DNA from: SAR202 cluster bacterium Io17-Chloro-G7
Lineage (GTDB): Bacteria; Chloroflexota; Dehalococcoidia; UBA3495
Direction of reading: 5' to 3'
NCBI GenBank assembly: GCA_002817055.1
Contig: MUCU01000032.1
Coordinates: forward strand, 1 to 16,140
DNA: 16,140 nt
Positions 5,875 through 11,650 of the stretch are shown here, one piece after another. The notes below the pieces were generated by a model. That model did no database searches and had not been told where the DNA came from. It worked only from the letters and a program-made list of their open reading frames with translations. The first letter of the stretch is position 1, and every line of letters starts with the position of its first letter. The position numbers and the translations under genes were made by a program.

Positions 5875-6036
5875 CCCGGCTCGTGCCTATGCAGCTTCGG
5901 CCAAGCCTAAGACCGACGCTACACGCTGGCGTTACCCGGTATTACCCAGGATAGAGACGGGGAATACGTGATGTATAGTATAGTTTAGCCGCGGATTGTG
6001 GCCCCTCGATCCCAGACTCAACCCAGGAGGCGGCTC

Positions 6037-6456
6037 ATGGCCAGTCACGAACTCCGGGTATTCGATTACGATAAATTGGAAATTGGAGAGGAACTGGGCT
6101 CCTACGAGTACGTACTGACACAGGAGATGCTAGACAACTTCCGTGCCGCCGTGGGGGACCCGGACGCCTCATTTCCCACCTTAGCGGTAAAGCACGACGC
6201 CACAGCCTTCGCCATGGTATACGAAGACAACACAGGCGGGGTGAACGCAGGAAACGAGGTGGAGTTCTTTAACCCGCCCATACCCGGGAAAATCATCCGG
6301 GTTACGGGCCGGGTGGCCGACAAGTACCTGCGCCGGGACAAGCCTTACATGGTTATAGAAGCCACCGCCATAGATGAAGACGGTCGCTTACTGGAAAAAC
6401 TGCGCACCTATCAGATGAAAAAGCCAGACGAGGTTGGAAAGAAATGGCAAACGTAA
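6037..6456 (+). CDS. MaoC-like hot-dog dehydratase, N-terminal-type subunit
   Basis: This is a half-size hot-dog protein of 139 residues, of the kind pairing with a second MaoC-like subunit to hydrate or dehydrate acyl-CoA or acyl-thioester substrates. AGGAGG at 6025-6030 lies 6 nt before ATG 6037, so the GTG at 5998 is rejected as start. The core reads GDPDASFPTLAVKHDATAF, then GNEVEFFNPPIPGKIIRVTG, a typical hot-dog strand. It lacks the D-x4-H dyad of R-specific enoyl-CoA hydratases in its normal place, which suggests a structural or substrate-binding partner. Its last 13 bases overlap the start of the next gene, so the two are almost certainly cotranslated. The exact substrate is unknown. 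Confidence 0.85.
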   Translation: MASHELRVFDYDKLEIGEELGSYEYVLTQEMLDNFRAAVGDPDASFPTLAVKHDATAFAMVYEDNTGGVNAGNEVEFFNPPIPGKIIRVTGRVADKYLRRDKPYMVIEATAIDEDGRLLEKLRTYQMKKPDEVGKKWQT

Positions 6457-6863
6457 AGATAGAGCTAGACCAGGAGATTCCAACAGTTTCCAAGAAGATT
6501 ACTCAAGAGAGCATTAACCGGTTCGAGGCTTGCGGTATTCTGGACCGGCAGAACATTCACAACAACCCGGATCTGGCCAGGGAGCGTTTGGGGTTTGCCC
6601 ATCCCCTGGCTTCCGGGCGCATGTCGGTGACTTTTGCCGCCGAGAGCCTACGCAAGTTCTTCGGCGCCGAGGTTTTTAACCACACCGGCACCGTGAATCT
6701 AAAGTTCCTGCGACCGGTCAAAAACGGCGACACGGTAACCGTCACGGGGAAGGTAAGTCACCAACAGGAAGTAGATCAGGGCACCCTGGTCACCATCGAC
6801 CTGTTCTGCGAGAACCAAGACCGGGACCGGACGGCCATCGGGCAAGGCACCGCCATCGTGTGA
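6444..6863 (+). CDS. MaoC-like hot-dog dehydratase, catalytic-type subunit
   Basis: This is the second half-size hot-dog subunit, 139 residues. DRQNIHNNPDLA (34-45) aligns with the hydratase-2 motif D-x-N-P-x-H, keeping D34 and H39, the usual catalytic pair. FAHPLASGRMS follows, as in the family. The gene starts at ATG 6444 inside the previous gene, with a GGAAAG ribosome site. Known two-subunit MaoC-type enzymes form heterodimers in which one subunit is catalytic; I infer the same here. The LigB-family gene downstream suggests a route degrading aromatic or other organic acids, although a separate promoter seems to lie between them. Confidence 0.87.
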   Translation: MANVKIELDQEIPTVSKKITQESINRFEACGILDRQNIHNNPDLARERLGFAHPLASGRMSVTFAAESLRKFFGAEVFNHTGTVNLKFLRPVKNGDTVTVTGKVSHQQEVDQGTLVTIDLFCENQDRDRTAIGQGTAIV

Positions 6864-7015: not shown

Positions 7016-8110
7016 ATGGGAGAAATTCTAGGTATTGGAATCACCCATTATCCACCCCTATTGGACAATTCCGAAAGCTTTAGTCTAATTCCAATTATCT
7101 CGAAGAGCCCCATGGTCCCCGACGAGATGAAGAACCCGGAAAACTGGCCGGAACCCATGCAAATAGAGTATGCCAACGAGAAGGCCCTGACCATTGAACA
7201 CCGGGAGCGATTAATCGAGGCCTTGCGCCGGGTACGCCGGGCTATCGATGATTTCAAGCCCGACGGCATTATTATCTTTGGCGACGACCAATACGAAAAT
7301 TTCAAGGAGGACTGCGTCCCGCCTTTCTGCGTCCACATCCGTGACCGGATGGAGAGCCAGCCCTTCATGAATCCCATGCTCGGCCTGGGCAGCAACAATG
7401 TGTGGGGAGAGCCAGACGACAAGGTCTTTGTGCATCAAGGGGACAAAGACCTAGCCAAACACATCACTACGGAGCTACTGGACCGCGGGTTCCCGATGGC
7501 CTACTCATTGACCAATAGCCACCATGCCGAGGAACACGGTCCCACCGGCTTGACCCATGCATTCTTAAACGGCCTGCTTTATCTGGACTGGGACCGGAAA
7601 GGGTTCGACTACCCGGTGATTCCCATTCAGGTGAACGCTTACGGCAAAAACGTGATCCAAAGTGAAGGCGCTATCGCCCACCTCAAACCCAACCGCAAGA
7701 ACGAACTATATGGCGACGAGTTTTCTCCGCCAGCCCCTAGCCCTGCTACTTGCGTACAACTGGGTCAGCACATGAGAGAAATCCTGGAGGAGCTGCCGGG
7801 CAAATACGTAATAATGGCTTCTTCCGGATGGTCCCACGCCTTCCTGGTCGCCAAGAACCATTGGCTTTGGCCAGACATTGAGGCCGACCGGAAGCACTTT
7901 GAAGACTTACGCGACGGCAATTTTGACAAATGGGCGCAGTTGACCAACGACCAGATAGACGAATCCGGCCAGCAGGAGTTCCGAAACTGGATCTGCTTGT
8001 CCGGAGCGATGGAAGGGTATAAGGCAGAGATCGTCGACTACATGGAAAACTACATTTTCAACTCAAACAAGTGCTTCGCTGTCTTGCGACCCGGCGAAAG
8101 CTCATCTTGA
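7016..8110 (+). CDS. LigB-family class III extradiol dioxygenase-like protein
   Basis: The family cleaves catecholic rings using Fe(II). AGGAGG (7003-7008) supports ATG 7016, giving 364 residues. Compared with LigB: H11 in ITHYPP fits the first metal ligand; E321 in GQQEFRNWICLSGAMEG fits the glutamate ligand; H274 in ASSGWSHAF fits the catalytic histidine. The second histidine ligand, expected in a D-H-x-x-x-F context, is glutamine here (FGDDQYENF, Q92). SHHAEEHGPTGLTHAF (168-183) is also typical of the family. The protein may be a dioxygenase subfamily with an altered metal site or a related non-oxygenase. There is no separate small LigA-like gene next to it. Substrate unknown. Confidence 0.85.
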   Translation: MGEILGIGITHYPPLLDNSESFSLIPIISKSPMVPDEMKNPENWPEPMQIEYANEKALTIEHRERLIEALRRVRRAIDDFKPDGIIIFGDDQYENFKEDCVPPFCVHIRDRMESQPFMNPMLGLGSNNVWGEPDDKVFVHQGDKDLAKHITTELLDRGFPMAYSLTNSHHAEEHGPTGLTHAFLNGLLYLDWDRKGFDYPVIPIQVNAYGKNVIQSEGAIAHLKPNRKNELYGDEFSPPAPSPATCVQLGQHMREILEELPGKYVIMASSGWSHAFLVAKNHWLWPDIEADRKHFEDLRDGNFDKWAQLTNDQIDESGQQEFRNWICLSGAMEGYKAEIVDYMENYIFNSNKCFAVLRPGESSS

Positions 8111-8326: not shown

Positions 8327-8359
8327 CGAATTATCCAGCCATCGCTAATTAGGAGAACT

Positions 8360-8656
8360 ATGCCCGGTAGCGAATTCGGAAAAGTCGAAGTCGAAATCCT
8401 ATACTGCGCCTCTTGAGGTTACTATCCTGTCGCCACGTGGTTGGCGTCGGAATTCTTTCACTCGGATGCCCCCGGCGACGTCGCATTGAAACTAACGCCC
8501 GACGGCAAAGGCCGCTTGGAAGTCTACCTAGACGGAGAGAAAATCTTCGACCGCAAAGAGGCAGGCGCTTTCCCCGATTTGGGCAAGGTCAATGAACTAA
8601 AGATGACTATTGCCGAAAAGCTATTTGAAATCGAGGACGCCCTAACCGCTGATTAG
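8360..8656 (+). CDS. SelW-like (Rdx family) selenoprotein, in-frame TGA = Sec19
   Basis: One reading frame runs from ATG 8360 to TAG 8656, broken only by TGA at 8414-8416. Reading it as selenocysteine gives 98 residues, the usual size of SelW/SelT/SelH-type Rdx proteins. The start VEVEILYCASU (9-19) is the first strand and CxxU redox motif of the thioredoxin-like fold (C16, U19). It continues directly into GYYPVATWLASEFF, a matching helix, then VALKLTPDGKGRLEVYLDGEKIFDRKEAG and FPDLGKVNELK, the conserved second half. Similarity extends seamlessly on both sides of the TGA, so neither half is a separate gene. AGGAG (8351-8355) precedes the ATG. A SECIS-like hairpin follows the TGA and a terminator follows the gene. 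The molecular role of the family is redox-related but not well defined. Confidence 0.9.
8427..8450 (+). promoter_or_regulatory. bacterial SECIS-like hairpin
   Basis: Within the coding RNA, CUGUCGCCA (8427-8435) pairs with UGGCGUCGG (8442-8450). The upper stem has five Watson-Crick pairs, followed by one U-U mismatch and three more pairs including a G-U. The 6-nt loop CGUGGU contains a G in its first two positions and a GGU. The loop begins 20 nt after the UGA. These values fit the general description of bacterial SECIS elements bound by SelB. Confidence 0.7.
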
Positions 8657-8770: not shown

Positions 8771-8816
8771 ATGGTCAAACAACGACCACATCCAGTCTGG
8801 CAAATTGGAGCAACTC

Positions 8817-9518
8817 TTGGCCAACGCAGAGCATATCCAGATAGCCAAATCGGGCCCGGCGGCCTTCGGCGAGTGGCGGGAACAGAACCCCAACACCCAA
8901 CTAGACCTGTCGGGTGCAGACCTAGCCGGGATAAACCTGAAGGGCGCCAAAATCCGTGGGGCGAACCTGTCGGGCGCAGACTTAGCCGGAGCAACATTGG
9001 GCCGTGCCAGCCTTGCGGGAGCTAACCTTTCCGGGGCCAATCTGGAAGCGGCAGATCTGGGACGCGCTATCTTGACCGGGGCCAACTGTTCGGGCGCAAG
9101 CTTGCTCAACGTCAATTTGTTCTGGGCCGACCTGAATAACTGCAACCTTTCGGGAGCTGTTCTCCGCTTGTGCCGCTTGGGCCGGGCTTCATTCGTGGGC
9201 GCAAACTTGAGCGGTGCGGACTTTAGCCAAGCCAACATGATCGAAGCAGACCTACGCAACACCAACATGGAAGGAGCGACGTTTCATTCCTCCAACATGA
9301 ACGGGGCCGACTTGGGCCGCGCATTCATGAATGGCGCTGATTTCAAACTAGCCATGATCCGCGATTCCATGTTCGTGGCGGCAGACCTTCGGGGCGCCAA
9401 CTTTCAACAAGCCAGCCTACACCGCTCGGACATGACCATGGCCAAGTACGACGAATCGACCCGGTTCCCCGTGGGCTTCGACCCCAACGACACCGGGCAG
9501 AAGGATGTCGACGGCTAG
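8817..9518 (+). CDS. pentapeptide-repeat protein
   Basis: From about residue 30 onward the protein consists of A(D/N)LxG-type pentapeptides (LSGADLAGINLKGAKIRGAN and so on), about 35 repeats up to residue 215. Such repeats form a right-handed quadrilateral beta-helix; some family members mimic DNA and bind gyrase, but most have no known role. I prefer TTG 8817 as the start. GGAG (8807-8810) lies 6 nt upstream, and the resulting MANAEHIQIAKSG resembles the usual opening of this family (MANxEHLxIL), followed by a WREQNP linker. TTG 8805 is in frame but has no ribosome site. There is no signal peptide. Central repeats contain three cysteines within about 40 residues. The last 25 residues fall outside the repeat. 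Confidence 0.88.
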   Translation: MANAEHIQIAKSGPAAFGEWREQNPNTQLDLSGADLAGINLKGAKIRGANLSGADLAGATLGRASLAGANLSGANLEAADLGRAILTGANCSGASLLNVNLFWADLNNCNLSGAVLRLCRLGRASFVGANLSGADFSQANMIEADLRNTNMEGATFHSSNMNGADLGRAFMNGADFKLAMIRDSMFVAADLRGANFQQASLHRSDMTMAKYDESTRFPVGFDPNDTGQKDVDG

Positions 9519-9715: not shown

Positions 9716-10747
9716 TTGGCAATCTTGCAGATCGCAGCGGACCGTCCGGGCTCTGGGAAATCCAGCCTGTCTGGCGCCTTGCTACTCCACCTAACTTGCG
9801 CAAACAGGCGGGCCGCCTACTATAAACCTTTATCCAAGCTTGCTGAAAACGACCTCGACGTCGCCTTTTTCTCCCAGTCGCTTAAGGCCAACGCTGCCTT
9901 CACACCACCTCCAGCCGCAAGCCCAATGCCCCGGTCCAATTCTAGCCTTGACGCCAATCTCTCCACCCGAGTGGAGGCGGAGGTAACTCGACTCAAGAGC
10001 TTGGCCGAATCAGTACTGTTGGAAGGCCCCGACCTAGCAGATACGGAAGGTGTGGTTTCACCCCTCCCCCTAGAATTGTCGAGCGCTACCGGTTCCTGGA
10101 TTGTGGCTGTGTTTAGTTACTCGAAAGAGTTGACGTCCGATGCTATAGCCGAATCCTGCCAACCCTTGGGAGAGCGCTTGGCTGGCGTGCTCATAAACAG
10201 CGTAACGGCGTATCGCGGTCATCATGCCAAGAACGTTCTTGGCGCTGAATTAATCAACAGAGGGATTCCCTTTTTGGGGGCGGTTCCCGAGGACCGGACA
10301 ATGTTGGGGGTCTCGGTCCAGCAAATATTGGACTACTTGAAAGGACGCTGGGTACAAGAGCCGGAGCATGTGGATGCCCGAGTGGAGCGGTTCTTGATAG
10401 GTGGCAACATATTGGATGACGGTCCCAGTTATTTTGGCCGCCTCGCCAATCAAGCAGTCATCACCCGCGGCGCCCGGCCCGACATTCAGATGGCCAGCCT
10501 AACCAGCCACCCTCTCTGCATAGTGTTGACCGGCGGTCAGGAACCCGCCGAGTACGTTAAGGCTGAGGCATCGCAAAGAGGCGTGCCTCTAATTCTGGTT
10601 GATACCAATACTATTGATACCGCAGACTCGCTTAGCGGCCTTCTTGACTTGGCCACGTCTCGAAGCGTACAGAAAATCCAGCGCTTCTTGCATTTGCTGG
10701 AGGAAAACGCCGACCTCGAAGCAATGGCGTCTCTGGCACTCAGCTGA
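9716..10747 (+). CDS. BioD-like P-loop and DRTGG domain protein (phosphotransacetylase N-terminal-like)
   Basis: The product resembles stand-alone versions of the N-terminal half of long phosphotransacetylases: a BioD/CobB-like P-loop domain followed by a DRTGG domain. DRPGSGKSS (9-17) is the P-loop. LLEGPDLAD (101-109) matches the BioD-like acidic strand. GVLINSV (157-163) and AVPEDRTMLGVSVQQI (189-204) are typical of the first domain's end. The DRTGG domain covers about 215-315, with RFLIGGN, AVITRGARPDIQMASL and CIVLTGG. There is no catalytic phosphotransacetylase domain, so a regulatory role is likely. The start is TTG 9716, with AAGG at 9707-9710. A nine-codon ORF (9686-9715) ends exactly before it. 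Confidence 0.8.
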   Translation: MAILQIAADRPGSGKSSLSGALLLHLTCANRRAAYYKPLSKLAENDLDVAFFSQSLKANAAFTPPPAASPMPRSNSSLDANLSTRVEAEVTRLKSLAESVLLEGPDLADTEGVVSPLPLELSSATGSWIVAVFSYSKELTSDAIAESCQPLGERLAGVLINSVTAYRGHHAKNVLGAELINRGIPFLGAVPEDRTMLGVSVQQILDYLKGRWVQEPEHVDARVERFLIGGNILDDGPSYFGRLANQAVITRGARPDIQMASLTSHPLCIVLTGGQEPAEYVKAEASQRGVPLILVDTNTIDTADSLSGLLDLATSRSVQKIQRFLHLLEENADLEAMASLALS

Positions 10748-10846: not shown

Positions 10847-10910
10847 GGTCGATGGTGGCGCTGACCCATTTGTTTGTTAGTAGAGTCTCGATGTATCGCC
10901 ACCATCGACC
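10847..10910. repeat. 14-bp perfect inverted repeat at the end of the SDR gene
   Basis: GGTCGATGGTGGCG (10847-10860) and CGCCACCATCGACC (10897-10910) are exact inverse copies, 36 nt apart. The right arm encodes part of the dehydrogenase C-terminus (VDGGD); the left arm lies past its stop codon. It may terminate or protect the transcripts of the convergent genes. Confidence 0.7.
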
Positions 10911-11650
10911 GGGAGGACCGCGCCATTCACGAAACGCGACGCATCCGAGCACAACCAGACTATCGCCTCCGCCGTCTCTTCGGCAAAGCCAAACCGATTG
11001 AGGGCTGAATAGCGACTGACAACCGCCTGAATCACATCCGGAGCGGCCTCCACATACGGATCCACCATCTCAGAGTGTGTAAAACCTGGAGCCACGACAT
11101 TGATTTTGATGCCATGCTGCGCATAGTCAACCGCAGCAGTCTTGGACAGGCCGACGAGGCCGAATTTACTCGCGCTATACGGCGCATGCCCAACATCATT
11201 TGGCTTGGAACCGTAAACAGAGGATATATTGACGATAGAACCCTTTCCCTGCTTGAGCATTGCGAGAATTTCGTACTTCATGCACAGCCACACCCGCTTC
11301 AAATTGGTGTTCATGACTTCATCCCAGCCCTCCTCCTCAATCTCCGCCACCGGCACCATCACGGGTCCAGTGATGCCCGCATTGTTGACCGCACAATCCA
11401 GTTTGCCGATTTTGGCCACTGTGCCATCAATCAAAGCTTCAATATCGGCCCGTTTGGTGACGTCGGTCTTGATGAACAGCCCTTCGGCTCCCAAGGCCTT
11501 GATCTTTTCCACGACCGCCTAGCTCTGCTCTTCTCGGCGAGCGGCAACGACAACCGTGGCCCCTTCTTGGGCGAATTTCAAAGCCGCCGCTTCACCCAGC
11601 CCGGAACTCGCTGCGGTGACAATCACCACTTTCCCTTCGAAGGTTTTCAT
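10877..11650 (-). pseudogene. short-chain dehydrogenase/reductase interrupted by one TAG codon
   Basis: The frame from ATG 11650 to 10877 codes for a complete classical SDR (NAD(P)-dependent oxidoreductase, about 257 residues), except for TAG at codon 44 (11519-11521). Before it: VIVTAASSGLGEAAALKFAQEG, the dinucleotide-binding start, with alanine where TGASSG is usual. After it: NNAGI, NISSVYG with the catalytic serine, YSASK with tyrosine and lysine, and a C-terminal VLPVDGGD. The context RREEQS-stop-AVVEKI suggests a single GAG-to-TAG change. GGGAG (11659-11663) stands 8 nt before ATG 11650, and a good promoter lies upstream. A GTG at 11512 could restart a shorter protein, but that would lack the cofactor-binding glycine loop. 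Substrate unknown. Recent inactivation or a sequencing error are the simplest explanations. Confidence 0.85.

Follow-up and report, generated by a model that had tools for sequence, protein, structure and literature searches.

The window analysed here, the whole 16,140-nucleotide stretch of contig MUCU01000032.1 from SAR202 cluster bacterium Io17-Chloro-G7, carries on its + strand a short selW-like gene (8360..8656; 98 codons and a TAG) that is assigned to the Rdx family by profile matches, an AlphaFold2 model and Foldseek. Read directly from the sequence, a single frame runs from ATG 8360 to TAG 8654-8656 and is interrupted by TGA 8414-8416 alone, as the first-pass annotation had described, and an AGGAG motif resembling a Shine-Dalgarno sequence lies 5' of the ATG (8351..8355, + strand). 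The conceptual product has 98 residues with U at residue 19, placing the TGA (+ strand) within a C16-A-S-U19 motif whose Cys16 is encoded by TGC 8405..8407 (+ strand). No Shine-Dalgarno-like site was found within 25 bases 5' of TTG 8441, the start of a shorter reading of the same frame. When the window was searched for frames that a TGA interrupts and that have a Cys at most 3 residues away, the 8414 site and five other places (+196, -8060, -7767, -7437 and -2671) came out, and these five all fall inside genes called either on the opposite strand or in a different frame. Within the window no Rfam family scored above its gathering score, and no tRNA genes were found. Elsewhere on the contig, a short-chain dehydrogenase (SDR) gene on the - strand (10877-11521) is split by an in-frame TAG (11519-11521), upstream of which the N-terminal part continues in an unchanged frame; a pseudogene, an error or some other cause could account for this arrangement.

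Related loci were collected by scanning the contigs of genomes with two C-terminal peptide patterns, which yielded 45 loci (L001-L045); because the patterns lie outside the Sec site, they introduce no bias on the Sec codon. The 41 closer loci (L001-L041) represent 39 genomes, as L012 and L013 share one genome and L036 and L041 another, and are labelled SAR202, Dehalococcoidia or Chloroflexi/Chloroflexota, with the exception of L039 (Proteobacteria). The closest relative, L001, is from SAR202 cluster bacterium Io17-Chloro-G4, with 88% identity over the best segment, and an alignment search of viral contigs found no relative of the selW-like gene. In L001-L037 the gene occupies a constant place in an order of genes on one strand, consisting of a gene with no Pfam match (5998-6456 in the window, + strand), a MaoC dehydratase gene (6444-6863, + strand), selW, a pentapeptide-repeat gene immediately downstream (8805..9518, + strand), and a gene combining a BioD-like ATPase (AAA_26) with DRTGG (9716..10747, + strand). 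Each of these four neighbours was found in 36 of the 37 loci, with the misses at contig edges (upstream in L034, downstream in L016), and IscA and GcvT come next in 19 of them. Judged from gene order, this conservation suggests one vertically inherited operon. L038-L041 are more divergent Sec-containing SelW relatives, of which L041 is a paralogue in the genome of L036; none of the conserved neighbours was found beside them, L039 having little flank. The window itself has a LigB-type dioxygenase gene (7016-8110) between the MaoC gene and selW, for which tblastn found no match in the examined flanks of any of the 41 related loci.

Membership of the Rdx, or SelW-SelT-SelH, family is indicated by profile matches above the curated cut-offs. 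The 98-residue product matches Pfam Rdx with an E-value of 2.8e-15 (56.7 bits, cut-off 22.6) and the NCBIfam model CXXU_selWTH (TIGR02174) with 49.2 bits (cut-off 34.2), and falls below the cut-off of the Campylobacter-type equivalog NF041051 (52 against 88 bits). An AlphaFold2 model computed on a 24-row alignment in which Sec was entered as C reaches a mean pLDDT of 84.9 and a pTM of 0.75, and shows a thioredoxin-like fold in which residues 16 and 19 sit in the loop between the first strand (9-15) and helix 1 (22-33), the expected place of a C-x-x-C/U motif. Foldseek returned 22 PDB matches at an E-value of 0.001 or less, from 2obk, 2p0g, 2fa8, 2oka, 3dex, 2ojl and 2npb, with a best value of 1.1e-7 among bacterial SelW-related structures. 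Three of the latter, 2p0g, 2fa8 and 2obk, share the fold and the placing of the two redox residues, and in the sequence alignment their second redox Cys lies opposite residue 19, where the window protein would have Sec instead. In the first-pass annotation the TGA had been assigned to the second redox position of a C-x-x-U motif, and the Cys of these aligned homologues agrees with that placement.

The same codon is found throughout the closer relatives. Codon 19 is TGA in all 41 closer loci, including L029, whose sequence contains N, and the corresponding position is Cys in all four Bacteroidota loci (L042-L045), so that these loci have either TGA or Cys opposite residue 19, the pattern of an in-frame TGA opposite Cys by which bacterial selenoproteins are recognized. 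With the same TGA recurring in 41 loci from 39 genomes, an error in base calling is very unlikely. In a comparison of 37 rows (the window and L001-L037 less L013), G7, K8 and C16, all encoded 5' of the TGA, are identical in 37/37 while third codon positions vary, as is expected of translated sequence. The claims of the first-pass annotation that similarity continues on both sides of the TGA, and that a stop at exactly this codon is unlikely to be due to chance, are thus upheld by a conserved protein in related loci, by the 41 of 41 count, and by the retention of upstream amino acids over variable third positions. In 41 of 42 rows the TGA is preceded by T, the last base of codon 18 (8411-8413), regardless of the amino acid encoded (CCT, TCT, GCT and AGT all occur), with C in its place in L040; this near-constant T possibly reflects an influence of codon context on whether Sec is inserted or translation terminates.

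Protein databases present a different picture of the family. A search found 355 homologues, and among the 120 for which details were listed, 116 are 67-71 amino acids long and start after the Sec position, some of the 120 being named 'Rdx family protein' or 'predicted Rdx family selenoprotein'. P0118, the only one of the short homologues matched to its DNA, equals the post-TGA part of L011 save for its first residue, and L011 has the TGA. It therefore seems, as had been anticipated, that gene callers miss the full frame, and many database copies of SelW-like relatives probably start after the Sec codon and lack the active site. Only four of the 120 are full-length, with W at position 19 in P0002, P0004 and P0014 and R in P0006. 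Codons for W and R can be one base from TGA, and these four could be gene-caller readings, sequence errors or cases of true Sec loss; they would form a biased sample if only such readings give a full-length call.

Immediately 3' of the TGA lies a putative bacterial SECIS hairpin (8427..8450, + strand), identified by folding, synonymous constraint and covariation, with a 5-bp upper stem, a 6-nt loop (CGUGGU, 8436-8441), a U.U mismatch and then three further pairs. The loop begins 19 nt past the TGA, and the minimum free energy is -11.6 kcal/mol. According to the accessible portion of PMC13188914, a bacterial SECIS has a loop of 3-9 nt with a G in its first two positions, a stem of 4-16 bp, a distance of 16-37 nt from the TGA and an energy of -7.5 or lower, and the window hairpin, with G as the second loop base, conforms on each count. 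Its stability is ordinary in comparison with shuffled sequences (z of -0.94 to 0.05 over four cuts), and among all TGAs of the window on both strands, 269 of 444 have a hairpin that satisfies the rule without its energy term. The presence of a hairpin by itself consequently proves little, and in the light of this control the rule on its own was not accepted as evidence. With the stem position held fixed, the window is among the 36 of 42 rows that satisfy the rule without the energy term; of the six that fail the strict rule, five have Ser26, which costs them the closing pair, and the sixth, L040, has no G at the required place in the loop.

More telling evidence comes from the choice of synonymous codons. 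Over codons 1-65, codons 24-29 rank highest of 60 six-codon windows for synonymous conservation, with a mean excess of 0.54 as compared to 0.095 at the 57 other scored codons. Codon 25 is GCC in 37/37 rows, Thr26 is ACG in 32/32 and Ala29 is GCG in 34/37, codon 28 being less constrained. Where Ala29 departs from GCG, the wobble base of codon 24 changes in compensation, the C-G pair becoming U-A in L022 and L038 and A-U in L027 and L028. Of 34 distinct rows, 33 preserve this wobble pair (columns 30/45), a figure matched by none of 1000 synonymous permutations. The mean number of pairs per row is 6.18 of 7, versus 6.02 under within-column synonymous permutation (0/1000 reach the observed value) and 5.16 when codons are redrawn by background usage. 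A covariation score was reached by 0/500 shuffles, a result subject to the relatedness of the rows, and other covariation measures were reached by 7, 72, 2 and 25 of 500; the count of pairs changed on both sides is not extreme (72/500 shuffles are as high), and RNAalifold recovers four inner pairs only. The sequence 3' of the TGA is under constraint at the RNA level.

The first-pass annotation had also implied a selenocysteine-decoding organism, with selA, selB, selD and tRNA-Sec as the genes to be sought, and a search of the 39 relatives' genomes, mostly drafts, is consistent with it. Using curated cut-offs, selA was found in 33, selB in 34 and selD in 37; a tRNA-Sec scoring at least 62 bits is present in 33. 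The gathering score for tRNA-Sec, 47, is passed by 35 of the 39, and because 5 of 14 control genomes pass it as well, matches below 60 bits, which are probably other tRNAs, were left uncounted; ARAGORN reported tRNA-SeC(tca) in all 12 loci given to it. All four components occur together in 28 of the 39 genomes, among them G009 and G035, whose loci are on chromosome records. Every genome has at least one of the four, and at least one is missing from 11 (G001, G003, G004, G006, G008, G014, G017, G018, G024, G036 and G038), which may be due to draft incompleteness. By extension from these relatives, the Io17-Chloro-G7 genome would itself encode the Sec machinery. Among the 37 genomes with selD above the cut-off, the match includes one in-frame TGA in 36, and in G026 the TGA lies in a separate piece of the match; selD is probably a second selenoprotein of these genomes.

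TGA also retains its usual function, serving as the stop codon of 5 of 12 other window genes checked. A related arrangement was observed within selW itself: in L031-L034 the frame closes at a second TGA, which shares bases with an ATG approximately where the pentapeptide match starts, and in L035 it closes at a TGA with an ATG directly after. The second TGA would be the selW stop and the ATG probably the start of the pentapeptide gene, in which case one gene seems to use TGA as both Sec codon and stop.

These observations bear on two other explanations of the interrupted frame. Were the TGA a true stop, the locus would be a decayed or error-containing copy from which only the fragment beginning at TTG 8441 is made, and the 67-71 residue products that gene callers report for 116 of 120 listed homologues are of just this kind. 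Such a fragment, however, would be without two parts of the modelled fold, its first strand and its active-site loop, and has no visible ribosome site before it; decay is likewise at odds with a TGA common to all 41 closer loci, with protein conservation on both sides and with synonymous variation upstream, making this account very improbable.

The TGA could instead be read as another amino acid, either Trp through a changed code or Cys through a tRNA-Cys with anticodon UCA, a type of tRNA that is known. The W at position 19 of three full-length database homologues would fit the former, but W and R codons are single-base neighbours of TGA and the four full-length records are, as we infer, an unrepresentative sample. 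Reassignment is moreover difficult to reconcile with five window genes that terminate at TGA, with SelA, SelB, SelD and tRNA-Sec in most relatives, and with a SECIS-like constraint 3' of the codon, and is regarded as highly unlikely.

The reading favoured here, with a probability of roughly 0.96, is that 8360-8656 is a SelW-like (Rdx) selenoprotein gene of a SAR202-type (Dehalococcoidia) bacterium, with Sec inserted at TGA 8414-8416 by means of a SECIS. The hairpin just 3' of the TGA would recruit SelB carrying Sec-tRNA-Sec, and ribosomes at this TGA would insert selenocysteine at residue 19, TGA elsewhere remaining a stop. The product would be a small thioredoxin-like protein in which Cys16 (Cys in 37/37 compared rows) and Sec19 are predicted to form a redox-active selenylsulfide. 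A tentative and rather doubtful extension is that SelW of SAR202-type bacteria is fixed as a Sec protein and serves a dedicated redox step of the operon's pathway and not general thiol defence, an idea prompted by the absence of a Cys form in the 41 closer loci and by the stable order with the MaoC-type gene and its partner, the pentapeptide gene and the BioD/DRTGG gene.

SECIS elements of eukaryotes are found in the 3' UTR. The window hairpin differs from that of mouse selenoprotein W in lying inside the coding region. The mouse protein (2npb) is matched by fold (Foldseek E-value 9.2e-5) and weakly by sequence (0.0093), and both proteins are CxxU, the motif given for SELENOW in the available part of PMC8508763. 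Closer counterparts are the marine SelW-like proteins, which are reported as the most abundant selenoprotein family of the Sargasso Sea (48 genes; PMC1088965) and of the GOS data (427 sequences; PMC2398784), and whose share in a subsequent GOS set is 11.3% (PMC9402790). As described there, these proteins are CxxU, with a bacterial SECIS and a marine source, and the window gene is alike and belongs to that kind. The accessible text of PMC1794560 notes very few or no Cys forms of SelW-like proteins in Sec-using organisms, with which the 0 of 41 found here agrees, and counts three selenoproteins for Chloroflexi. SelA and SelB are reported to co-occur in sponge symbiont bins, in a paper that also mentions SAR202 and selenocysteine (PMC5649159), as does PMC2629846.

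The word Chloroflexi is absent from the main texts of PMC1088965 and PMC2398784, as are SelW, Chloroflex and SAR202 from that of PMC13188914, and these three terms and Dehalococc from that of PMC12013277. A search of literature mostly outside subscription titles found no paper that brings SAR202 together with selenoprotein or with the Rdx family. The family is already known, and what the window gene adds to the Sargasso and GOS reports is an owner clade, the SAR202-type bacteria, with Sec throughout it, together with a conserved gene neighbourhood and order, covariation in the SECIS, and a probably widespread truncation of its annotation. Many protein records of the SelW-like family, the listed homologues suggest, start after the Sec codon and are missing the active site. 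An ecologically important uncultured clade is hereby identified as the owner of part of a selenoprotein family that is very abundant among marine prokaryotes, and a Sec-type SelW in SAR202-type bacteria implies that these bacteria use selenium.
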